This document shows, in pieces, positions 39,376 through 54,637 of a stretch of DNA of 64,000 nt. Below the pieces are notes generated by a model. The model was not told the origin of the DNA. It was given only the letters and a program-made list of their open reading frames with translations, and did not search any database. The DNA comes from Pseudoxanthomonas sp. PXM01 (GTDB lineage Bacteria > Pseudomonadota > Gammaproteobacteria > Xanthomonadales > Xanthomonadaceae), in NCBI RefSeq assembly GCF_014851815.1, contig NZ_JACVAJ010000002.1:186001-250000 (forward strand), given 5' to 3'. Each line of letters starts with the position of its first letter. The stretch's first letter is position 1. Made by a program: the position numbers and the translations under genes.

Positions 39376-39484
39376 TCCTCGCACTACGCGTTCTTTACGG
39401 GATGCGGCACGGGACGCGGTAGAGGCTTTACGCGCACGCCCCCTATCGTGGCGTCACCGCACTCCGGTGCGCTTCATCGCTCCC

Positions 39485-39937
39485 ATGTCCATCCTGATCC
39501 TGCGCGGCCCGCATGCCGCCATCCCGCCGTTCTCCGCGTCGTCCCATACTTTCTACCGTCCGCTGCGTGAGCGTGCCCGCGCCGCCGGACAGGCGCTGCA
39601 CTGCCGCGCCTTCGCCAGCGTCCGCGAGCTGATCGCCGGCTTGCGGCGCGCACGCCGCGAACGCACCGACCTGCTGCTGCTCGACATCGGCGACCTCGCC
39701 CTGCGCGACACCGCACAGGCCACCGCGCTGCGCGCTGCGCTCGACGACCTGCCGTCGCCCTACATCGAAGTGCACGACGATGCCGCGCATGCACTGGAGC
39801 CGCGCGTGCAGCCGCAGCATGCCCCGCTGGTCACCGTCATCCTGCGCGACGACCTGTCGCGCGCCTATGCGATGGCGCTCGCCATCGCCCTGCGTCGCCT
39901 CGACCGTGCGACCGCGGCGGACGCCTTCCATGCCTGA
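39485..39937 (+). CDS. Type II dehydroquinase-like protein, degenerate (copy 1)
   Basis: This 150-residue protein has the order of parts seen in type II 3-dehydroquinate dehydratase: SILILRGPH where the enzyme has ILVLNGPN, SPYIEVHDD where it has PFIEVHLSN, and a closing AYAMALAIALRRL. Catalytic residues of the true enzyme (Asn of GPN, the Tyr loop, His of the HTS motif) are not visible, so shikimate-pathway activity is unlikely. A paralogue follows directly. The ATG at 39485 is aligned with that of copy 2. Confidence 0.65.
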   Translation: MSILILRGPHAAIPPFSASSHTFYRPLRERARAAGQALHCRAFASVRELIAGLRRARRERTDLLLLDIGDLALRDTAQATALRAALDDLPSPYIEVHDDAAHALEPRVQPQHAPLVTVILRDDLSRAYAMALAIALRRLDRATAADAFHA

Positions 39938-39950
39938 GCCGGAGCCCCTC

Positions 39951-40418
39951 ATGTCCATCCTCGTCATCCGTGGCCCCGAACACCACGATCGCCTGACCTC
40001 GCCGCCGCCTCCGCTGCCGCCGTCCGTACTGGGTGCACTCGTGCAGCGTGCAGCGTGCAGCGTGCAGCGTGCGGGCTGCGCGGGCCAGACGCTGGCCGTG
40101 CGCAGTTGCGGCTCCACCACCGAAGTGCTCACCGCCCTGCGTCTGGCCAACGAATGGGGCGTCCGCGCCACCCTGCTCGATCCCGGCGCACTGTCCGACC
40201 ACCCGCTGCTGCAACGCGCGGTGCAGGGCCTGACGCATCCCTACGTGGAAGTGCACGACGGCCTGGGCGAACAGGAACCTTCCCTTCCTGCCTCCACCGG
40301 ACGCCGCCTCGCGGTGGTCGATGGCTACGGCGCACGCAGCTATGCGCTGGCGCTGGAGATCGCGCTGGAACAACTGGGCTGCGCCGAGTGCGAGTGCGAT
40401 GTGCACGTCGGCACCTGA
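39951..40418 (+). CDS. Type II dehydroquinase-like protein, degenerate (copy 2)
   Basis: This 155-residue paralogue of the preceding gene has SILVIRGPE at the start, VRSCGSTTEVLTALRLANEWGVR (compare the SN..EG.. segment of AroQ), HPYVEVHDGLGEQEP and GYGARSYALALEIALEQL. Catalytic residues are again not evident. A four-copy GTGCAGC repeat lies inside the coding sequence at 40041-40068. I start at 39951 behind GGAG; an ATG at 39930 overlapping the previous stop is also in frame. Confidence 0.68.
   Translation: MSILVIRGPEHHDRLTSPPPPLPPSVLGALVQRAACSVQRAGCAGQTLAVRSCGSTTEVLTALRLANEWGVRATLLDPGALSDHPLLQRAVQGLTHPYVEVHDGLGEQEPSLPASTGRRLAVVDGYGARSYALALEIALEQLGCAECECDVHVGT
40041..40068 (+). repeat. Heptanucleotide tandem repeat (GTGCAGC x4) inside a gene
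   Basis: Four exact copies of GTGCAGC are followed by a partial fifth (GTGC). The unit is not a multiple of three, so gain or loss of one copy would shift the frame of the dehydroquinase-like gene. It encodes VQRAACSVQRA, a stretch with no counterpart in copy 1. Confidence 0.9.
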
Positions 40419-40617
40419 CGCGCCGCGTGAGTACTTCGCCGACTACGAGGTCTACCAGGAAGGTCATGCCGTCGCCTGGGGCCAAGTGACGTACCGCGCG
40501 CGCAACGCTGCGGACGCCACCGCGGCAGACGTGGTGGCGTCGTTGCGCCAACAGGCTGCTTACATGCACGAGGTAGACGCGGGCGCGATCCGGTTGCGTT
40601 GCATCGCACGCCTCTGA
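40399..40617 (+). CDS. Small hypothetical protein overlapping the dehydroquinase-like gene
   Basis: This 72-residue protein has the stretches EYFADYEVYQEGHAVAWGQV and VVASLRQQAAYMHEVDAGAI, which look like a strand-helix protein and not a shadow. It starts inside the end of copy 2 (20-base overlap) in another frame. I do not recognise a family. The three genes 39485-40617 are probably one transcript. Confidence 0.6.
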   Translation: MCTSAPDAPREYFADYEVYQEGHAVAWGQVTYRARNAADATAADVVASLRQQAAYMHEVDAGAIRLRCIARL

Positions 40618-40686
40618 TCCCCCTGTCATGCCGGCGTCATCCCGCTCGCGTACGTTGCCGGGTTTTCCGACAGGCGGGGCGACACG

Positions 40687-41202
40687 TTGGCCGAGCAGGC
40701 GATCCGGGCGCTGACACGCGTCTTCACCGACCAGGCGCCCGCCCTCCGTGGTTTCTTCGCGCGTCGCGGCGCCAACGACGAGGCCGAAGACCTGGTGCAG
40801 GAAACCTATCTCCGCCTGCTGCGTGCCCACCAGGGCGGTGGCGAGCGCATCGCCAATCCGGAGGCCTACCTCTATACCGTCGCCACCAACCTGGCGCGCG
40901 AACAGGCTGCGCGCCGGCAGCGCTCGCCGGTGCCGATCGAAGACGTCGAACAGGTGGCCGCGCTGATGACGAATCCGGAAGGCGTCGAGGACGCGACCGA
41001 GCGCGCGCAGCGCCAGCAGCACATGCACGTCCTGCTCGCCGGCCTGCCGGCACGCACGCGCGCCGTGCTGGTCATGCAGTACCGCGACGGCCTGACCTAC
41101 CGCCAGATCGCCGACCGCATGGGTGTCTCCCCGCACATGGTGAAGAAGCACGTCGTGCGCGGGCTGGCGGTGTGCCGCCGTGCGGTCGGGGACGACCGAT
41201 GA
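40687..41202 (+). CDS. FecI-type ECF sigma factor
   Basis: This 171-residue sigma factor has region 2 (NDEAEDLVQETYLRLLRAH, ANPEAYLYTVATNLAREQ) and region 4 (LPARTRAVLVMQYRDGLTYRQ, SPHMVKKHVVRGLAVC). It is the iron-starvation-type partner of the next two genes and should direct RNA polymerase to the TonB receptor promoter. The best start is a TTG (40687); no ATG or GTG fits the N-terminus and the ribosome site is weak. Its stop overlaps the FecR start (ATGA). Confidence 0.9.
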   Translation: MAEQAIRALTRVFTDQAPALRGFFARRGANDEAEDLVQETYLRLLRAHQGGGERIANPEAYLYTVATNLAREQAARRQRSPVPIEDVEQVAALMTNPEGVEDATERAQRQQHMHVLLAGLPARTRAVLVMQYRDGLTYRQIADRMGVSPHMVKKHVVRGLAVCRRAVGDDR

Positions 41203-42251
41203 GCGACCGCCGCTTCGGCAGGATGAGCGCCACCGAGGAAGCCGCGCACTGGCATCTTTTGCAGCGCGAAGGCGCGTTGAGCGCGACCGACCAGCAGCGC
41301 TTCATGGATTGGCTGGTCGCGTCGCCCGACCATCTGCGCGAATACCTCGCGATGGCACGCGTGACCGCGGAACTGGGTGAAGCCCTGCGCACCCTGCCGG
41401 CCGATGCGGAGACCGATGCACTCATTGCCGGCCGTCCGGCGGATCACGCCAACGTCATCCCGCTGGGCCGTACACGAGCCATCGAGCATCCGCCCGCGCG
41501 CGCGACGCGCCGTACCTGGTTGCCACGCGCGGCTGCCGCGGCGACGCTGCTGCTGGCGGTCACCACCGGCTGGCAAGCGGTATCGCCTTCGCCGCGCCAT
41601 TACCTTGCGCCGCATGGCGAGCCGCGCGTCTTCGCGCTGGATGACGGCACCGTGCTGCACCTCAATGCGGAAAGCGAAGCCAGTGTCTCGCTCGGCCTGT
41701 TCCACCGCCGCGTGGCGCTGACCCGCGGCCAGGCGAGCTTCGTGGTCGCGCCCGGCCGACGACCCTTCACCGTCCGCGCGGCCGGCATGGAGGTGCGCGA
41801 CATCGGCACCACATTCGATGTTTCGCTGCAACGCGACCAGGCGCGCTTCGGTGTCACCGAAGGCCGCATCCACGTGGTCGATGAGGACGGCGCCGGACGG
41901 CTGCTGGCCGACCTGCAGGCGGGCCAGGCCGCGCGCATCGCGCAGGCGGATCGCCGGGTACACATCAGCCAGGAAGACAGCGACGTGCTGACCGCCTGGT
42001 GGGACCGGCGCGTCGTGTTCCGCGACGAGCCCCTGCGCGACATTGCCGACCGCTTCAACCGCATGAACCGCGTGCGCCTGCACGTGGACGACAACGTGGC
42101 CGGTGCGTTGCGTCTGACCGGCAACCTGCAGGCGAACGATCTCGCCTCGCTGCGCGCCTTCCTCGACGAGCAACCGTCACTGGCCACGACGGCGGACGCG
42201 CGCGAGATCCGCGTGCGTTCGCGCCACGTGCTGGTGCCCGGCGCGTACTGA
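41199..42251 (+). CDS. FecR-family anti-sigma regulator
   Basis: This 350-residue protein spans the inner membrane once. The cytoplasmic DUF4880 part (about 9-50: EEAAHWHLLQREGALSATD and LVASPDHLREYL) is followed by a membrane helix (about 104-120), the FecR domain (EPRVFALDDGTVLHLNAESEA; GQASFVVAPGRRPFTV; IGTTFDV) and a C-terminal STN-contact domain (FRDEPLRDIADRFNRMN). It holds and activates the FecI-type sigma factor on a signal from the TonB receptor. Its start overlaps the sigma stop by four bases. Confidence 0.93.
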   Translation: MSDRRFGRMSATEEAAHWHLLQREGALSATDQQRFMDWLVASPDHLREYLAMARVTAELGEALRTLPADAETDALIAGRPADHANVIPLGRTRAIEHPPARATRRTWLPRAAAAATLLLAVTTGWQAVSPSPRHYLAPHGEPRVFALDDGTVLHLNAESEASVSLGLFHRRVALTRGQASFVVAPGRRPFTVRAAGMEVRDIGTTFDVSLQRDQARFGVTEGRIHVVDEDGAGRLLADLQAGQAARIAQADRRVHISQEDSDVLTAWWDRRVVFRDEPLRDIADRFNRMNRVRLHVDDNVAGALRLTGNLQANDLASLRAFLDEQPSLATTADAREIRVRSRHVLVPGAY

Positions 42252-42372
42252 TCCAGCTGCTGTAAGAAAAAATTCACGAAGAAATCGGTGCCCGATCTTC
42301 TTCGTCGGGAATCGTAGGGAGGTGAGCACGCGTTGATCGCGCTGCCGCCACCCCACCCCACTGGACTCCCCG

Positions 42373-45300
42373 ATGCGCCGACTCCTCGCTCTTTCCATCG
42401 CCCTCGCGCTGCAGGCCGCGACCGCCAATGTCGCGGCCCAGCAGGCGAACGTCGCGACCGACGCCATCCCGCCGCAGTCGCTCGATACCGCGCTCAACAC
42501 GCTGTCGCGCCAGACCGGCCTGCAGTTCGTCTACAACGCGCAGGCCGGCAACCCGCGCACGCGCGCCGTGCCCGCCGGGCTGTCGTCCGAACAGGCGCTG
42601 ACGCAACTGCTCGACGGCACCGGACTGCGCTACCGCTACCTCAACGCCAGCACCGTCACCATCGAAGCCGACGCGGCACCGGCTGCGCCCGCCGCGCCTG
42701 CTGCGGAACCTGCCCGCGCGCCTGCCGCCACAGCACCCACCGCACAAGCGGTGGACACGCAGGAGCTGGAAAGCATCGAAGTGGTCGGCAGCTACAGCCG
42801 CAGCCTGGAGCAGGCAGTCGACATCAAGCGCTACACCGTGGGCTTCTCGGACTCCATCGTGGCCACCGACGTCGCCGACTTCCCCGAACAGAACCTCGCC
42901 GAGGCGCTGCAGCGCATGCCCGGCGTGACCATCGAGCGCAACAAGGGCATGGGCAGCAAGGTCAACGTGCGCGGCCTGCCGTCCGAGTACACCCATGTGT
43001 CGATCAACGACCTGGCCACCGCCTCCGGCAGCGGCGGCCGCGACGTGGAGTTCGACCTGTTCGCCTCCGAGATCATCCAGCAGGTCACCGTGCAGAAGTC
43101 CCCCACCGCGGCGGACGAGGAAGGCGGCATCGCCGGCTCGGTGAAGATCTCCACTGCACGCCCGTTCGACTACAACGGCCGCAAGCTGGTGTTCTCGGCC
43201 GAGGGCGCACACAACTCGATCTCCGAGGAGACCGACCCGAAGTTCGCCTTCCTCGCCAGCGACACCTGGGGCGACTGGGGCGCACTGGTGTCGTTCTCGC
43301 ACGCCGAGCGCACCAACCGCACGGATTCGACCTCCGGCATCAACTTCCGACCGATGTCGCGCTTCCTCGGCGCCTCCGGCACGCGCGGCTCGCAGGCCGA
43401 AGCGGTGATCGAGCGCGATACGGGCTGGGTGATCGACAACCGGGCGAACACCGCCGAGAGCAACCTGATCGTGTTCCAGGACAAGGTCGGTGACCGCGTC
43501 TACCTCAACGACCAGGACAAGTGGGGCGCCACCGCCTCGCTGCAGTACAAGCCCAGCCGCACCTTCAGCCTGACCTTCGACGCGATGGTCGGCGGCTACG
43601 ACACCACCGAGGACGAGTACGACGCCGCCGCCTACTCGGCCTCCAGCCGCAGCACACTGGAGACGATCCACGAATACGACGACACCACCCTGTCCGACTA
43701 CGGCATGCTGGTGCTGCGCGACGTGTCCTACACCGCGACCCAGCACGAGTTCCTGAGCAAGGAGCGCATCAACAAGACCGACTACGGCCAGTACAGCGTG
43801 GCCCTGGACTGGAACAACGACCTGTGGGACGTCGAGGCGATGGCCGGCTACTCGGGTGCCGAGAAGACGCTGGACTACTCCAATCTCAAGCATGTGGCCT
43901 ACGCACCGTCGCGCACGCGCTGGACCGGCCGCAGCGGCGAGACCCTTCCCAGCGCCACCTCCGGCGGCTTCGACATGTACGGCTCGCCCGAGCGCTACCT
44001 GTTCGAGGCCTACGAGACCACGCTGGAGAAGATCAACGACGACAAGTACGCCGCCAAGGTCGACGTGACGCGCAAGCTGGAACTGCCGTTCCTCCCCGCG
44101 CTGCGCAGCGTGCAGTTCGGCGGCCGCTACACCGACCGCAGCAAGGAACGCCAGTACGGCGAGCTGAAGATCACCGGCCCGTCCGCCGGCAACACCTCGT
44201 GGGTGAACGTCCGCACGCTGGCCGACAGCCCTCTGCAGTGGATCGGCGACATCGTGCCGGGTGGCAACTACAGCGTGAAGGATCTCGACTGGCGACAGGT
44301 CTCCAACGACTTCGCCCGGGGCTACTTCCGCTATCCCGGCTTCTCCACGCCGTTCGACGACGCCCAGTACTACCGCGTCGACGAGGAAGTCGCCGCGCTG
44401 TACGCGATGACCAATTTCGACTTCACCCTCGGCCGCGTGCCGGTCACCGTGAACGCGGGCGCACGCTACGTCGATACATCGGTGACCTCGTTCGGCTACC
44501 ACCCCGTGCAGAACCCCGACGGCAGCACCGGCTACACCGACACGCCGGTGTCGAAGGACGGCGGTTACACCGACGTGCTGCCCAGCTTCAACCTGACCGC
44601 CGAACTGGCCGACGGCCTGCTGCTGCGCGCCGCGGGTTCGGAAACGCTGATCCGTCCGGCGCTGGGTGACGTGGCCTACAAGCGCACGGCGAGCTGGAGT
44701 TCGTTCCGCTTCACCGACGGCAACCCGGACCTGAAGCCGACCTACGCCAAGCAGTGGGAAATCGGCCTGGAGAAGTACCTGGAGAACGGCGGCCTGCTGG
44801 CGGCGTCGTACTTCCGCAAGAAGATCGACGGCGTGGTGGTCAGCGCGCTGACCGGTGTGGTCGAGGACGTGGCCGTGTACAACGCCAACGGCACGCTCAA
44901 CGGCTACTACGACTTCGACGTCTACCAGCCGGTGAATGCCAAGGGTTCGTACGACGTGGATGGCATCGAGCTGATCGCCAACCTGCCGCTGGCCACGTTC
45001 CACCCGGTGCTGGAAGGCTTCGGCCTCAACGCCAACTACACGATGCTGGACAGCTCGCTGGCCGGCGAGTCCGACCTCGGCATCCGCACACCGATGCCGG
45101 GCCTGGCGGAGAAGACCTGGAACCTGACCGCGTACTACGAGAACGCGCGCTTCGACGCCCGCGTGTCGTACAACCACAAGGACGAGTACGTGGAGTCGAT
45201 CGGCTACAACATGTACCCGATCTGGCGCGATGCCTATGGCCAGCTCGATGTCTCGATCGGCTACCGGATCAGCGATCACCTGAAGCTGAGCCTGAAAGGC

Positions 45301-45411
45301 ATCAACCTGACCGACGAAGAGACCAGCGGCTACACCATGGATCCATCGTTCCCGACCATGTACGAAAAGTCGGGCCGCCGCATCAGCCTGGGGCTGCGCG
45401 CCGACTTCTGA
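42373..45411 (+). CDS. TonB-dependent receptor with N-terminal signalling (STN) domain
   Basis: This 1012-residue outer-membrane transducer has a signal peptide (about 1-22) and an STN domain (about 30-95: IPPQSLDTALNTLSRQTGLQ). An Ala/Pro linker, a TonB-box-like ESIEVVGSYSR, a plug (DFPEQNLAEALQRMPGVTIER, GLPSEYTHVSINDL) and a long beta barrel ending in ISLGLRADF follow. The STN domain passes the ligand signal to FecR. Its plug type resembles receptors for sugars or phosphorylated organics as well as siderophores; the ligand is unknown. An exported PHP enzyme follows. Confidence 0.95.
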   Translation: MRRLLALSIALALQAATANVAAQQANVATDAIPPQSLDTALNTLSRQTGLQFVYNAQAGNPRTRAVPAGLSSEQALTQLLDGTGLRYRYLNASTVTIEADAAPAAPAAPAAEPARAPAATAPTAQAVDTQELESIEVVGSYSRSLEQAVDIKRYTVGFSDSIVATDVADFPEQNLAEALQRMPGVTIERNKGMGSKVNVRGLPSEYTHVSINDLATASGSGGRDVEFDLFASEIIQQVTVQKSPTAADEEGGIAGSVKISTARPFDYNGRKLVFSAEGAHNSISEETDPKFAFLASDTWGDWGALVSFSHAERTNRTDSTSGINFRPMSRFLGASGTRGSQAEAVIERDTGWVIDNRANTAESNLIVFQDKVGDRVYLNDQDKWGATASLQYKPSRTFSLTFDAMVGGYDTTEDEYDAAAYSASSRSTLETIHEYDDTTLSDYGMLVLRDVSYTATQHEFLSKERINKTDYGQYSVALDWNNDLWDVEAMAGYSGAEKTLDYSNLKHVAYAPSRTRWTGRSGETLPSATSGGFDMYGSPERYLFEAYETTLEKINDDKYAAKVDVTRKLELPFLPALRSVQFGGRYTDRSKERQYGELKITGPSAGNTSWVNVRTLADSPLQWIGDIVPGGNYSVKDLDWRQVSNDFARGYFRYPGFSTPFDDAQYYRVDEEVAALYAMTNFDFTLGRVPVTVNAGARYVDTSVTSFGYHPVQNPDGSTGYTDTPVSKDGGYTDVLPSFNLTAELADGLLLRAAGSETLIRPALGDVAYKRTASWSSFRFTDGNPDLKPTYAKQWEIGLEKYLENGGLLAASYFRKKIDGVVVSALTGVVEDVAVYNANGTLNGYYDFDVYQPVNAKGSYDVDGIELIANLPLATFHPVLEGFGLNANYTMLDSSLAGESDLGIRTPMPGLAEKTWNLTAYYENARFDARVSYNHKDEYVESIGYNMYPIWRDAYGQLDVSIGYRISDHLKLSLKGINLTDEETSGYTMDPSFPTMYEKSGRRISLGLRADF

Positions 45412-45507
45412 TCCCCTGCGCGCCGTCGGCCCGTGCCGCGGCGCGCTTCTCTTTCCCGCGATCCTGCCGCACCCGCGGCGGCATCGCCGTGTCCTGCGAG
45501 GTTCACC

Positions 45508-46908
45508 ATGCGCTCCTTCCTGTTGCTGGCCCTGCTGGCGGCTCCGCTCCCTGTCCTCGCCGCCGAAGGCGACACCGGCCGTGCCTGGCAACCCGGCGAC
45601 CACCACGTGCACAGCGAATGGAGCGTCGACTGGAACCGCACCACTTCGCCGCCGACGCCGATCCGCGGCGGCGATTCACCGTACACGCGCAGCGACAACG
45701 CACGCCAGGCAGCGAAGTTCGGACTGACCTGGATGGTGCACACCGATCACGGCGGCCCCGGCCATTCGGTGGTGACGCGCGACCACGCCTGGCCCGCGCT
45801 GGAACAGGCGCGTCGCGACGTGCCCACGCTGATCCAGTTCAACGGCGCCGAATTCGACGTGCCCGCGGCGGAGCACGCGTCGTTGATCATCGCGCCATCG
45901 CCGCGCGAGCGCGATGAACTGGTGGAAATCGAACGCCGCTTCGGCCGCAGCGAACCTATCGACGGCGTGCAGCGCGACGATGGCCAGACCATGCTCGACG
46001 CACTGGCGCACATGCGCAGCCTGCCCGCGCCGCCACTCGTGTTCGTCAACCATCCCTCGCGTACCGCCAGCGGCGTCGGCATCTGGGGCGATGTGGATCC
46101 CACCGAACTGCGCGGCTGGCACGACACCGCACCACGCGTGCTGGTCGGCATGGAAGGCGCACCCGGCCACCAGGCCATCCGCAGCGAGCGCGGCCTGTAC
46201 CGCAACGCCGCGGCACCGACCTTCGGCGGCTTCGACCAGATGACCGCGCAGGTCGGCGGCGTATGGGACACGTTGCTGGCGGAAGGACGACGCTTCTGGA
46301 TCACCGCCACCTCCGACTCGCACGTCAACCTGCGCGATGGCGGCCGCGACTACGATCCCGGCGAATACAGCAAGACCTATGTGTGGGCGCGCCACGACGC
46401 GGACGACATCCTCGATGGCCTGCGGAACGGCCGCATGTTCGCGGTGACGGGCGACCTGGTCGACCGGCTCGAACTGCGCGTGCGCGCGGGCGGCAAGCGC
46501 GCGCCTTCCGCCACGCTCGGCGAGACGCTGGCGATGACGCCCGGCGACACGATGCGCATCGAACTGCGCGTGCGCCAACCCGCGCGCCCGAACACGCACG
46601 GCGACATGCCCGTGCTGGCGCAGATGGAAGTGATCGTCGGCTCGCCCGGCGATGACGGCGCGCCGGTGATGCAGACCCGGCGCTGGACCGCGGAGCAGTG
46701 GCGTCGCGACGGTGACTGGCGCGTCGTCACGTGGGAACTGCCTGTCCCGGCACGCGGCGCCTTCGTGCGTGCACGCGGCAGCAACACAGGGGAAGCGGCG
46801 CCGCTGGCCGACGTGCCCGGCGAGGATCCGTGGCAGGACCTGTGGTTCTATTCCAATCCGGTGTTCATCGACACCGCCGGCCCGCAGGCGCAACGCCCTG
46901 CACGTTGA
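45508..46908 (+). CDS. Exported PHP-domain phosphoesterase
   Basis: This 466-residue protein has a signal peptide (about 1-19). Its PHP domain has GDHHVHSEWS (HxH metal motif, about residues 31-38), MVHTDHGGPGHS, QFNGAEFDVPAAEHASL, VFVNHPSR and the late ATSDSHVN. PHP enzymes are metal-dependent phosphoesterases. A C-terminal beta domain (about 310-466) follows. It lies 96 bases after the TonB receptor and may process the same ligand before or after uptake (inference). No lipid anchor is seen. Confidence 0.88.
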   Translation: MRSFLLLALLAAPLPVLAAEGDTGRAWQPGDHHVHSEWSVDWNRTTSPPTPIRGGDSPYTRSDNARQAAKFGLTWMVHTDHGGPGHSVVTRDHAWPALEQARRDVPTLIQFNGAEFDVPAAEHASLIIAPSPRERDELVEIERRFGRSEPIDGVQRDDGQTMLDALAHMRSLPAPPLVFVNHPSRTASGVGIWGDVDPTELRGWHDTAPRVLVGMEGAPGHQAIRSERGLYRNAAAPTFGGFDQMTAQVGGVWDTLLAEGRRFWITATSDSHVNLRDGGRDYDPGEYSKTYVWARHDADDILDGLRNGRMFAVTGDLVDRLELRVRAGGKRAPSATLGETLAMTPGDTMRIELRVRQPARPNTHGDMPVLAQMEVIVGSPGDDGAPVMQTRRWTAEQWRRDGDWRVVTWELPVPARGAFVRARGSNTGEAAPLADVPGEDPWQDLWFYSNPVFIDTAGPQAQRPAR

Positions 46909-47193
46909 GCACAAGACAGCGGGTGTTCACGCCCGCGCGTGATCCGGCCCGCAGTTCCCGCCATCGGCGCCCCATGCGTTGACGCGGTCTTTGCGAAACG
47001 CACGCGACACTTCACGTGTGGTCGATGCCGCAACCGCGGCGTGCCGGATCCAGGTGAAACAGCCACGGCGGCCACACCGGTACCGTTGTACGAAGCCCTA
47101 GCTTCGTCCAGCCTAGCTGCAAGTGCGTCCCCGTCCGAAGGATCGCTGGCGCGGTACCTGCTTCATCGCAGAAGGACGACGGAACGCGTGGCC
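46909..47193. other. 285-base gap without a recognised gene
   Basis: This lies between the 3' ends of the PHP gene and the 75-residue minus-strand gene. Open frames here have no ribosome sites or protein-like composition. I see no terminator with a T-run after the PHP gene. A short hairpin (GAAGC..GCTTC at about 47093) is the only structure noticed. Confidence 0.5.
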
Positions 47194-47218
47194 TCAGCCG
47201 CGCGTTCCGTCTTTCTGC
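47168..47218. terminator. Hairpin over the end of the 75-residue gene
   Basis: GACGGAACGCG pairs with CGCGTTCCGTC across a 12-base loop, and flanking GCAGAA/TTCTGC extends it with mismatches. The minus-strand stop codon lies in the loop. T-rich sequence follows only weakly on either side. Confidence 0.5.
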
Positions 47219-52531: not shown

Positions 52532-54637
52532 CTACCCGTGCGTACGCCGGGCCACCGGCGGTTCCTGCGGCGCCAGCGCCGGCATGTCTTCCACCGCGCG
52601 TGGCTTGCCGATGTAGTAGCCCTGCAACCGGCTGCACCCCATGGCCGCCAGCATCTGTTTCTGCTCGAGCGTCTCCACGCCTTCGGCCACCACTTCCAGG
52701 CCGAGTTGCTGGCCCAGCATCACCACCGATTGCACGATGGCGGCGTGACGCGAGCCGGTGGTCATCTGCCGCACGAACTGGCGGTCGATCTTCAGTTCGT
52801 GCGCCGGCAGGTAAGCCAGGTACGACAAGCTGGAATACCCGGTACCGAAGTCGTCCAGCGAAATGCGCGCGCCCACCGCCTCCAGTTGCGTGAGAACCTC
52901 CACCGTGCGCTCGGGCTCGAGCATCGCCATCGATTCGGTGATCTCCAGCGTCAGCGCGCCCGGCGGCAGGCCGTGCCGGCGCATGGCCGAGGCGACCTGC
53001 GCCACCAGATAGTCGCCACGCACCTGTACCGGCGACAGGTTCACCGACACCGTGGGAACGCGCGCGCCGGCGCGACGCCACACCGCCCACTGGCGGCAGG
53101 CTTCATCCAGCACCCATTGGCCCAGGTCCACGATCAGGCCCACGCGCTCGGCCAGTGCGATGAAGCGGTCCGGCATCACCAGGCCCAGGCGCGGATGCTG
53201 CCAGCGCACCAAGGCCTCCATGCCGGCCATGCCGTTGTCCTGCGCACGCACCTGCGGCTGGTAGTGCAGCACCAGCTGTCCGCGTTCCAGGGCCTTGCGC
53301 AGTTCGTAGGTCAGTTGCAGCTGCCCCTGCACCTCGTCGCCCATCGACGGCGCGTAGAGGGCAAGGCCGTTGCGGCCGGCCTGCTTGATGTAATACATCG
53401 CCACGTCCGCGTGCGCGATCATCGACTGCGCATCCTCGCCGTCACCGGGATACTGCGCGATGCCGATACTCGCGCTCACCGTGACGTCGTCGTTCTCCTG
53501 CAAGCGGGTCGATTCCAGCAGCGCCGCCAGCAGGCGCTCGCCGCGCGCCGTGGCCTCGCCCACCTCGGTCACGCGCGTGACCATGACGAACTCGTCGCCG
53601 CCCAGCCGCGCCACCGTATCGTCGGCGGCCGCCATGCGCCGCAACGTGTCCGCCACGCGGACCAGCAGCGCGTCGCCCACGTGGTGGCCGAAAGCGTCAT
53701 TGACGCCCTTGAAGCCATCCAGGTCGATGAACAGCAACGCGAACCGCTCGCCCTGCAACTGCGCGCGCAGGATGCGCTCCTGCAACTCGTCGGTCAGCAT
53801 CATCCGGTTGGGCAGGCCGGTGAGCGCGTCGTGCATCGCCAGATGGGTCAACTGGCGGTTGGCCAGCTGCAGCGAATCCGACAGCCGCGCCGTGCGTTCG
53901 TGCAGCAGCCGGTCCAGCGCGCTCGCACCTATCGCGGTGCCCAGCACCGCGGTGTTCACCACCACCACCAACCAGGCCAGCGAATCGGGCGACAGCCCGT
54001 CGCGCAGCGCCGCACTGCAGATCGAGCCTTCGGGGAAGTGCGCCGCGGCCATGCCGGTGTAATGCATGCCGACGATGGCCACGCCCATCACGCCCGCAGC
54101 GAGCAGGCGGTGCAAGCGTTCGTGATGCGCGTTGTCACGCAGGCGATAGGCGATGGCGAGCGCGGCGCCGGCGGCGACGATGGCGATCAGCAACGAGGCG
54201 GCGAACCAGAGCGGCTTGTAGATGATATCCGGGTCCATCCGCATCGCTGCCATGCCGATGTAATGCATGGCCGCGATGCCCAGCCCCATCACCACCGCGC
54301 CGCTCACCAGGCGCAACCGGGTGACGTGGTCGCGGGTGACCAGCCACAACGCATAGCCGCTGGCCGCCACCGCCAGCAGCAGCGACAACAGGGTGATGCC
54401 GATGTCGTAGCCCAGCCGGATGGGCAGGCGCAGCGCGAGCATGCCGATGAAGTGCATCGACCACACGCCGATGCCCATCGCCAGCGCGCCGCCGGCCAGC
54501 CACCAGCGACGGGCGACCGGGTCGCTGGCGCGGATGCGTCCGGTGGTCTTCAGCGCGGCATACGAGGCCACGACGGCCACGACGAACGACGTGACCACCA
54601 GTTCCGGCACATAGGTCGCAACAAGCCCTGCTTCCAT
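52532..54637 (-). CDS. MHYT-GGDEF-EAL cyclic-di-GMP protein
   Basis: This 701-residue inner-membrane protein has seven helices with three MHYT motifs (MHFIGM, MHYIGM, MHYTGM; about residues 61, 124, 188) that may bind copper and sense gases. An intact GGDEF domain (ARLGGDEFVMV, about residue 350) and an intact EAL domain (MEALVRW, EITES, DDFGTGYSSLSYL, EGVET) follow. No RxxD inhibitory site is seen before GGDEF. It could make and break cyclic-di-GMP; which activity wins cannot be read. It is divergent from the toxin-antitoxin genes. Confidence 0.95.
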   Translation of the reverse strand: MEAGLVATYVPELVVTSFVVAVVASYAALKTTGRIRASDPVARRWWLAGGALAMGIGVWSMHFIGMLALRLPIRLGYDIGITLLSLLLAVAASGYALWLVTRDHVTRLRLVSGAVVMGLGIAAMHYIGMAAMRMDPDIIYKPLWFAASLLIAIVAAGAALAIAYRLRDNAHHERLHRLLAAGVMGVAIVGMHYTGMAAAHFPEGSICSAALRDGLSPDSLAWLVVVVNTAVLGTAIGASALDRLLHERTARLSDSLQLANRQLTHLAMHDALTGLPNRMMLTDELQERILRAQLQGERFALLFIDLDGFKGVNDAFGHHVGDALLVRVADTLRRMAAADDTVARLGGDEFVMVTRVTEVGEATARGERLLAALLESTRLQENDDVTVSASIGIAQYPGDGEDAQSMIAHADVAMYYIKQAGRNGLALYAPSMGDEVQGQLQLTYELRKALERGQLVLHYQPQVRAQDNGMAGMEALVRWQHPRLGLVMPDRFIALAERVGLIVDLGQWVLDEACRQWAVWRRAGARVPTVSVNLSPVQVRGDYLVAQVASAMRRHGLPPGALTLEITESMAMLEPERTVEVLTQLEAVGARISLDDFGTGYSSLSYLAYLPAHELKIDRQFVRQMTTGSRHAAIVQSVVMLGQQLGLEVVAEGVETLEQKQMLAAMGCSRLQGYYIGKPRAVEDMPALAPQEPPVARRTHG

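Follow-up and report, generated by a model that had tools for sequence, protein, structure and literature searches.

The window analysed here is a stretch of 64,000 nucleotides (nt) from Pseudoxanthomonas sp. PXM01 (G000:C5:186001-250000, in a genome of 4.18 Mb). Its plus strand carries a run of four genes at 40687-46908, encoding an extracytoplasmic function (ECF) sigma factor, a FecR-type regulator, a TonB-dependent receptor with an STN signalling domain and an exported PHP-fold metallohydrolase. An ECF sigma factor, FecR and an STN-bearing receptor encoded together make up a FecI/FecR/TonB cell-surface signalling unit, and a complete unit of this kind is present at the locus. The genes and the regulatory features around them are listed below.

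40623-40640, plus strand: Pho-box-like direct repeat CTGTCAT-N4-GCGTCAT (16.1 bits with the pst matrix)
40651-40656, plus strand: -10-like hexamer TACGTT, 10 nt past the repeat (31 orthologue upstream regions compared)
40687-41202, plus strand: ECF sigma factor, FecI-like (PF04542, PF08281, TIGR02937)
41199-42251, plus strand: FecR-type sigma regulator (PF04773, FecR, with DUF4880)
42261-42317, plus strand: putative ECF promoter element TGTAAGAAAAAATTCAC...GGTGCCCGATC...TCGTAG before the receptor gene (near-invariant core in aligned STN-receptor orthologues)
42373-45411, plus strand: TonB-dependent receptor with N-terminal STN signalling domain (PF07660, PF07715, PF00593, TIGR01782)
45418-45446, plus strand: GC-rich hairpin between receptor and PHP gene, followed by CTTCTCTTT (fold and terminator-like match)
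45508-46908, plus strand: exported PHP-fold metallohydrolase with C-terminal beta-sandwich domain (NF038032 below cut-off, AlphaFold model, structure matches, metal-ligand positions)

The sigma protein scores 83.5 bits against the sigma70-ECF model TIGR02937 (cut-off 42.9), and the start of the FecR gene overlaps the end of its gene by 4 nt. The receptor is composed of STN, Plug and barrel domains and reaches 630 bits against TIGR01782, more than the cut-off of 310. The coordinates leave no room for a further gene between sigma and PHP, so there is no SusD partner. Relatives of the locus were collected in one scan of a genome collection, from which the best 80 of 96 loci were kept, with synteny taken from tblastn; the closest named relative among the loci kept is Pseudoxanthomonas sp. 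PXM02, whose PHP protein is 84% identical. Forty-four loci are of the Xanthomonadaceae type, L084 and Steroidobacter L018 included. The order sigma-FecR-receptor-PHP is preserved in 30 of them; four end at a contig edge (L014, L021, L075, L084), two carry receptor and PHP without an adjoining sigma/FecR pair (L072, L076), and eight have no receptor orthologue (L031, L035-L040, L082). Chance adjacency of the four genes is rejected as untenable because the block is conserved in this way. The first-pass annotation, made from the letters alone, had placed the four genes in one run, and profiles, fold and gene order all agree with it. Locus L084 lies on a contig labelled Bacillus subtilis SK7B5 (JAHREJ010000047.1), where receptor (79%) and PHP (69%) are of Stenotrophomonas type; it is probably a contamination of that assembly.

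The sigma gene is preceded by a repeat that resembles the PHO box, described in passages of PMC4415409 as a pair of directly repeated 11-nt units, each having seven well-conserved bases, CTGTCAT in Escherichia coli. Across the window and 30 further orthologues the repeat takes the form SNGTCAY-N4-SNGTCAY, followed after about 10 nt, in most of them, by TACCTT or a similar hexamer. Sites were scored with a matrix of 27 distinct sense-strand sites located before two PstS-type genes in 30 genomes of the genus. The seed of this matrix was CTGTMAY, and sites matching the seed precede pstS2 in 22 and pstS1 in 18 of the 30 loci. Within 250 nt upstream of the sigma gene, the best match falls at -61 to -66, a single 10-nt slot, in all 31 orthologues, with a mean of 12.9 bits and a minimum of 5.2 (L032). 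None of 1000 column-permuted matrices attains the real mean (permuted mean 2.5, maximum 6.3), and none of them puts more than 20 best matches into one 10-nt slot; 24 of the orthologues remain after thinning at 60% identity. Direct 11-nt units ahead of a promoter and similar to those of pst, as expected of the Pho regulon, are found in 31/31 orthologues. The genome encodes PhoB (372 bits, cut-off 296) and PstS-type proteins; PhoX (PF05787) was not found in it. Control by Fur was also considered and is unsupported, the best match to the commonly quoted Fur consensus before the sigma gene being 11/19, in one of the 31 orthologues.

The combination of the box with the -10-like hexamer has three matches in the genome, against none for a reversed control, and one of the three is the locus itself. 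Another precedes the gene of an Oar-like TonB receptor (PF25183, CarboxypepD_reg; L093:5367-8876, minus strand, G000:C4), possibly a further receptor under Pho control, to judge from this promoter match; near the third (L094) no gene was called on the appropriate strand. A gene adjoining pst on G000:C4 (L092:12539-13831, minus strand) encodes a phosphate-selective porin (PF07396, 166.9 bits). It runs away from the two PstS-type genes, and Pho-like sites face the porin in many relatives.

The receptor gene has an element of its own, with the core TGTMARAAAAAATTCAY...GGTRCCCGR...TCGTAG across STN-receptor orthologues. Searched as a strict pattern, this element turns up in 10 of 149 family genomes, with a single occurrence in each (reversed control 0 among the matches listed); the pattern misses some variants visible in the aligned orthologues. 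We infer that the element would serve as the target of the ECF sigma factor. The stretch TGTMARAAAAAATTCAY (42261-42280 and orthologues) is in addition a weak Pho-like match, with a median of 7.7 and a maximum of 12.5 in 57 regions. By analogy with the sigma-VreI targets of the PUMA3 system, PhoB may act at the receptor promoter too.

The junction between receptor and PHP bears on whether the two genes share a switch, as the first-pass annotation proposed, naming a separate promoter and regulation of PHP among the findings that would overturn the proposal. Receptor-PHP gaps of at least 30 nt (58, of which 44 are distinct) contain no good Pho-like site, the best score being 6.1; positions 40400-47200 of the window yielded no consensus sigma-70 promoter; and PHP starts 8 nt past the receptor stop in two genomes (L026, L075). 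A separate promoter was considered and is not borne out by these findings, and receptor and PHP look co-transcribed. The window's own gap adds a reservation. It measures 96 nt and holds two strong hairpins, the first of which is followed by a T-rich run; the stretch 45409-45510 folds at -50.3 kcal/mol (z -4.1), with a terminator-like match at 45432. Because of this terminator-like hairpin, a partial uncoupling of PHP from the receptor is possible. The hairpin at 45418-45446 is possibly an attenuator or a processing site, and could lower PHP expression relative to that of the receptor. Hairpin-like stretches of differing sequence are discernible by eye in the gaps of orthologues.

The longest frame of the PHP gene opens at 45433; its likely start is the ATG at 45508, which yields a protein of 466 residues with a Sec-type signal peptide, as judged by eye. 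The protein matches no Pfam family at E 0.001, the PHP family thus included, and finds no true relative among sequences of the PDB. With NCBIfam model NF038032 (CehA/McbA metallohydrolase) it scores 65.3 bits (E 6e-18), under the curated cut-off of 80, and its relatives in Firmicutes and in LSUCC0112 score similarly (66.1 and 64.2 bits). The AlphaFold model, with a predicted local distance difference test score of 87.3, is matched best by two annotated PHP phosphoesterases, 3e38 (Z 19.8, root-mean-square deviation 3.0, 221 residues aligned) and 2anu (Z 18.7, deviation 2.5, 199 aligned). Lower-ranked matches include RNase AM and 2yb1, a structure with bound adenosine monophosphate (AMP) and phosphate. 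Residues from about 319 to 457 match beta-sandwich domains rather than the PHP fold. The metal ligands of PHP enzymes are supplied by the motifs HxH, DH, E, H and DxH. Fold and alignment together recover this set: H33, H35, D80, H81, E115, H182 and H272 are invariant in 22/22 aligned relatives, and D270 is conserved in at least 90% of the 22. The enzyme is called PHP here because of the fold matches and these conserved positions; the fold comparison yielded no substrate assignment. In L030 (Pseudoxanthomonas suwonensis DSM 17175) D270 is replaced by Ala, SDSH becoming SASH, so that one predicted metal ligand is missing from a locus that is complete in other respects.

The occurrence of the PHP protein is patchy: 17 of 100 searched genomes have a match at E 0.001, the window's own included, and one of these is a 39% fragment only. 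The receptor has a match at E 1e-250 in 25 of 247 family genomes searched. PHP adjoins the receptor in 16/16 STN-bearing orthologues versus 1/9 STN-less ones (Fisher p 8e-6, a statistic that ignores shared ancestry). Two of the STN-less orthologues, in L125 (G287) and, by eye, L127 (G248), adjoin a dienelactone-hydrolase-like gene instead of PHP. The four-gene layout is also present in Sphingomonas L065, where the proteins are strongly diverged and a Pho-like site of 14.2 precedes sigma; in Sphingomonas L066 the order is PHP-sigma-FecR-receptor.

The signalling module can be separated from its enzyme. In two genomes of one genus (G256, G185), sigma and FecR lie elsewhere in the assembly, and the receptor beside PHP retains the ECF element; the displaced sigma/FecR loci (L162, L163) have degenerate Pho-like repeats at -63/-64, scoring 6.6 and 7.9. 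Three other genomes (G038, G106, G119) combine an orthologous sigma factor (68-71%) and FecR (50-58%) with the same element and a different STN-type receptor, 31-32% identical. This receptor is followed in 3/3 cases by a His_Phos_2 protein. NCBIfam, applied to two of these proteins (G038, G119), gives the AppA phytase/acid phosphatase model as the best match, below its cut-off. A PI-PLC-C1-like protein completes the cassette in the same two genomes (2/3), the contig of the third ending. Pho-like sites before sigma score 11.6, 14.0 and 11.1 in G038, G106 and G119, that of G119 being displaced in register, at -56. With the same module and element accompanied by different enzymes, one switch is thus found with two sets of phosphohydrolases. 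G038 also carries an STN-less receptor adjoining PHP.

Several PHP genes that lie away from the switch also follow sites of the Pho type. In the eight Xanthomonadaceae-type loci without a receptor orthologue, a Pho-like site precedes either the PHP gene (six) or a PHP operon (two). The orphan PHP genes of L031, L035, L036, L039, L040 and L082 have upstream scores of 11.3, 10.5, 15.5, 16.2, 9.3 and 8.5; 6/6 exceed 7.7, the 95% level of 510 control upstream regions, for which the 99% level is 12.2 and the maximum 17.1. The PHP gene of Xanthomonas codiaei and of X. floridensis comes after the gene of an STN-less receptor that is unrelated (27-28%); Pho-like sites scoring 15.5 and 16.3 stand in front of that receptor gene, and in L038 its stop overlaps the PHP start. 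Elsewhere, a purple acid phosphatase precedes PHP in LSUCC0112 (L067) and Pseudohongiella (L069); L067 displays, by eye, three GTCAT-like repeats at 11-nt spacing (score 10.1). On an Acidobacteria contig (L074), PHP stands between a metallophosphatase and PhoD.

In Firmicutes, PhoP recognises the half-site TTNAYA. Three such half-sites at 11-nt spacing are matched at 13 or more of 15 positions in 13 of the 25 rows of the Firmicutes PHP upstream set, in which one gene was split by the gene caller, and in 8 of 329 controls (Fisher p 5e-12, uncorrected); six other spacings fare worse on average. The same test applied to PstS-family genes from 12 of these genomes gives 16/24. Downstream of PHP, after 64-144 nt, 24/24 Firmicutes loci (L042-L053, L055-L064, L079, L083) carry one and the same protein cluster. 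The cluster member from L044, which was scanned, is a membrane protein of the HupE/UreJ_2 type whose N-terminal part is exported. It may deal with the metal that PHP uses or with what the PHP reaction produces.

We give a probability of about 0.7 to the reading that the locus encodes a two-gate system for scavenging organophosphates, which would be armed by PhoB and gated by a ligand. The anatomy of the sigma promoter suggests the first gate: at low phosphate PhoB would bind the repeat at 40623-40640 and, together with the housekeeping sigma factor, have the ECF sigma and FecR genes transcribed. The second gate is modelled on what is known of the family, where binding of the ligand to the receptor would let the STN domain signal through FecR and free the sigma factor. 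The freed sigma would then transcribe receptor and PHP from the element at 42261-42317. The exported PHP enzyme would hydrolyse an imported or nearby phosphoester, and the released phosphate would enter through Pst. The ligand may be of the inositol-phosphate or phospholipid-headgroup type, a guess made because the alternative cassette pairs an AppA-like phosphatase with a PI-PLC-like enzyme. For the wider proposal the odds appear slightly better than even: the PHP subfamily would represent an overlooked class of exported phosphate-starvation phosphoesterases in Proteobacteria and Firmicutes, distinct from PhoA, PhoD, PhoX, PafA, phytases and GlpQ. In Xanthomonadaceae it would form one interchangeable cassette of a PhoB-armed, ligand-gated receptor system, the AppA-like phosphatase and PI-PLC-like enzyme being the other.

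Several observations weigh against the two-gate system or weaken its support. The matrix was seeded with the familiar E. coli consensus, and some of the sites before sigma, such as that of L032, are weak. The window's site ranks second among all positions on both strands; the top score, 16.3 at 54247, sits inside a coding gene. Because of this match a lone site with such a score is poor evidence, and the argument depends on conservation, where orthologue counts are in turn not independent, owing to shared ancestry. No site was found with the pst matrix at seven PHP loci of other groups (L070, L071, L073, L074, L078, L080, L081), nor does the STN-less receptor beside PHP in G038 have a good one (3.8). 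The strongest counter-evidence comes from eight genomes with STN-less receptor orthologues that are 69-83% identical and have neither PHP nor sigma nor FecR genes close to them; 7/8 of them show no upstream Pho-like site above 6.7, and one has a score of 11.2 at -298. Since these orthologues occur without switch genes or good sites, the receptor ligand need not be tied to phosphate, and may also be used outside phosphate starvation. Enzymes of the PHP fold, finally, include non-phosphate hydrolases, and CehA/McbA proteins cut carbamates (PMC8292978, in the passages covered).

The weak point of the enzyme assignment leads to the competitor that fares best, and that we still consider unlikely: a phosphate-induced system whose PHP enzyme cuts an ester, amide or carbamate rather than a phosphate bond, so that, for example, a part bearing phosphorus is set free and can be imported. 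CehA/McbA, the closest family with a name, has characterised members that act on carbamates, and part of PMC8292978 mentions a TonB receptor upstream of a cehA gene in strain CDS-1. The PHP score, however, stays under the cut-off of that family, the top structures 3e38 and 2anu are annotated phosphoesterases and 2yb1 holds AMP with phosphate, and elsewhere phosphatases are found under the same promoter element. Direct control of receptor and PHP by PhoB alone, with sigma and FecR uninvolved and no ligand gate, seems quite improbable. The arrangement exists in X. floridensis and X. codiaei, where receptor and PHP follow a Pho-like site with no sigma/FecR adjoining, and the receptor promoter of the window has its own weak Pho-like stretch, TGTCAAAAAAAATTCAT. 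Set against this, 30 loci keep sigma, FecR and the STN receptor side by side, and the receptor is preceded by a near-invariant element that is retained even in the two genomes with displaced sigma/FecR.

Most FecI/FecR systems serve iron, and the locus might be an ordinary iron-siderophore FecIRA system followed by an unrelated hydrolase. Its sigma and FecR proteins do match the ferric-citrate FecI/FecR models, far under the cut-offs (52.9 of 260 and 75.3 of 385). What makes this very unlikely is that no convincing Fur box precedes sigma and a conserved Pho-like site does so instead, that PHP adjoins all 16 STN-bearing receptors of the sampled genomes, and that the module is paired with other phosphatases too. 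The interpretation given in the first-pass annotation is supported in part; its suggestion that the switch is linked to phosphorus rather than iron gains support from the same two promoter comparisons. The preferred reading remains the PhoB-armed, ligand-gated system.

Systems of this general kind are known. Passages of PMC8115612 describe phosphate utilisation loci (PUS) of Flavobacterium, induced by phosphate depletion, in which TonB-dependent transporters, an ECF sigma factor and/or FecR, and phosphoesterases share one locus. The PUSI rows there list PI-PLC and pf16670, the family found in the alternative cassette here. PUSI and PUSII differ in having SusCD-type transporters, in place of the TIGR01782 STN receptor and PHP-type enzyme of the present locus, and their induction by phosphate depletion contrasts with an induction that is here read from promoter sequence. 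The locus does not combine a SusCD-type pair with phosphoesterases; it would work like a PUS and is not a PUS member. In Pseudomonas aeruginosa, PhoB binds the vreAIR promoter and sigma-VreI targets (PMC4971064, in part), so cell-surface signalling driven by PhoB does exist in another gammaproteobacterium. That system, PUMA3 (VreA-VreI-VreR), is likewise a sigma/anti-sigma signalling operon acted on by PhoB through a pho box at low phosphate; according to the same passages, VreA lacks a beta-barrel, seemingly does not import, and the targets concern virulence. The receptor of our locus, in contrast, is complete, and its neighbouring gene encodes a hydrolase. A TonB receptor beside a phosphohydrolase is also seen at Fjoh_1367/1368 (PMC8115612) and in Citromicrobium (PMC3400609). 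There the enzyme is a phytase (pf02333 for Fjoh_1367) instead of PHP, and the passages covered give no PhoB-sigma-FecR cascade. CehA/McbA proteins share with our enzyme the match to NF038032 (65 bits here), and several of them have been shown or proposed to be periplasmic; the characterised members cut carbamate pesticides (PMC8292978, in part), whereas the setting here is one of phosphate starvation and the score is under the cut-off of 80.

Among the scavengers most commonly induced are PhoA, PhoD, GlpQ/UgpQ, PhyC and UshA, according to the parts of PMC4415409 covered, where the term PHP is absent; php and pf02811 are absent from the main text of PMC8115612. In the open-licence literature, where an absence carries little weight, we found no description of a PHP enzyme linked to the Pho regulon or, for Xanthomonadaceae, of a FecI/FecR system that is driven by PhoB and accompanied by a phosphatase. 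The first-pass annotation had known of no firm description of the pairing. As far as the literature searches reach, this holds for PHP; it does not hold for the general pairing, which passages on Flavobacterium (PMC8115612) and P. aeruginosa (PMC4971064) describe. The locus resembles PUS and PUMA3 and is of a known general kind, and the enzyme class inside it is plausibly new.

Upstream of the locus, two small neighbouring proteins (39467-39937 and about 40137-40418 of the window) have similar N-termini (MSILILRGP... and MSILVIRGP...). They resemble type II dehydroquinase by eye; the stretches tested gave no Pfam match.

If the reading is true, the idea of phosphate utilisation loci would extend from Bacteroidetes to a large gammaproteobacterial family, and one branch of the 'iron-type' FecI/FecR switches would gain a phosphate meaning. 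A new enzyme class would join the search list for organic-phosphorus mineralisation, and the conserved PHP/CehA-like family would acquire a testable job in two phyla.

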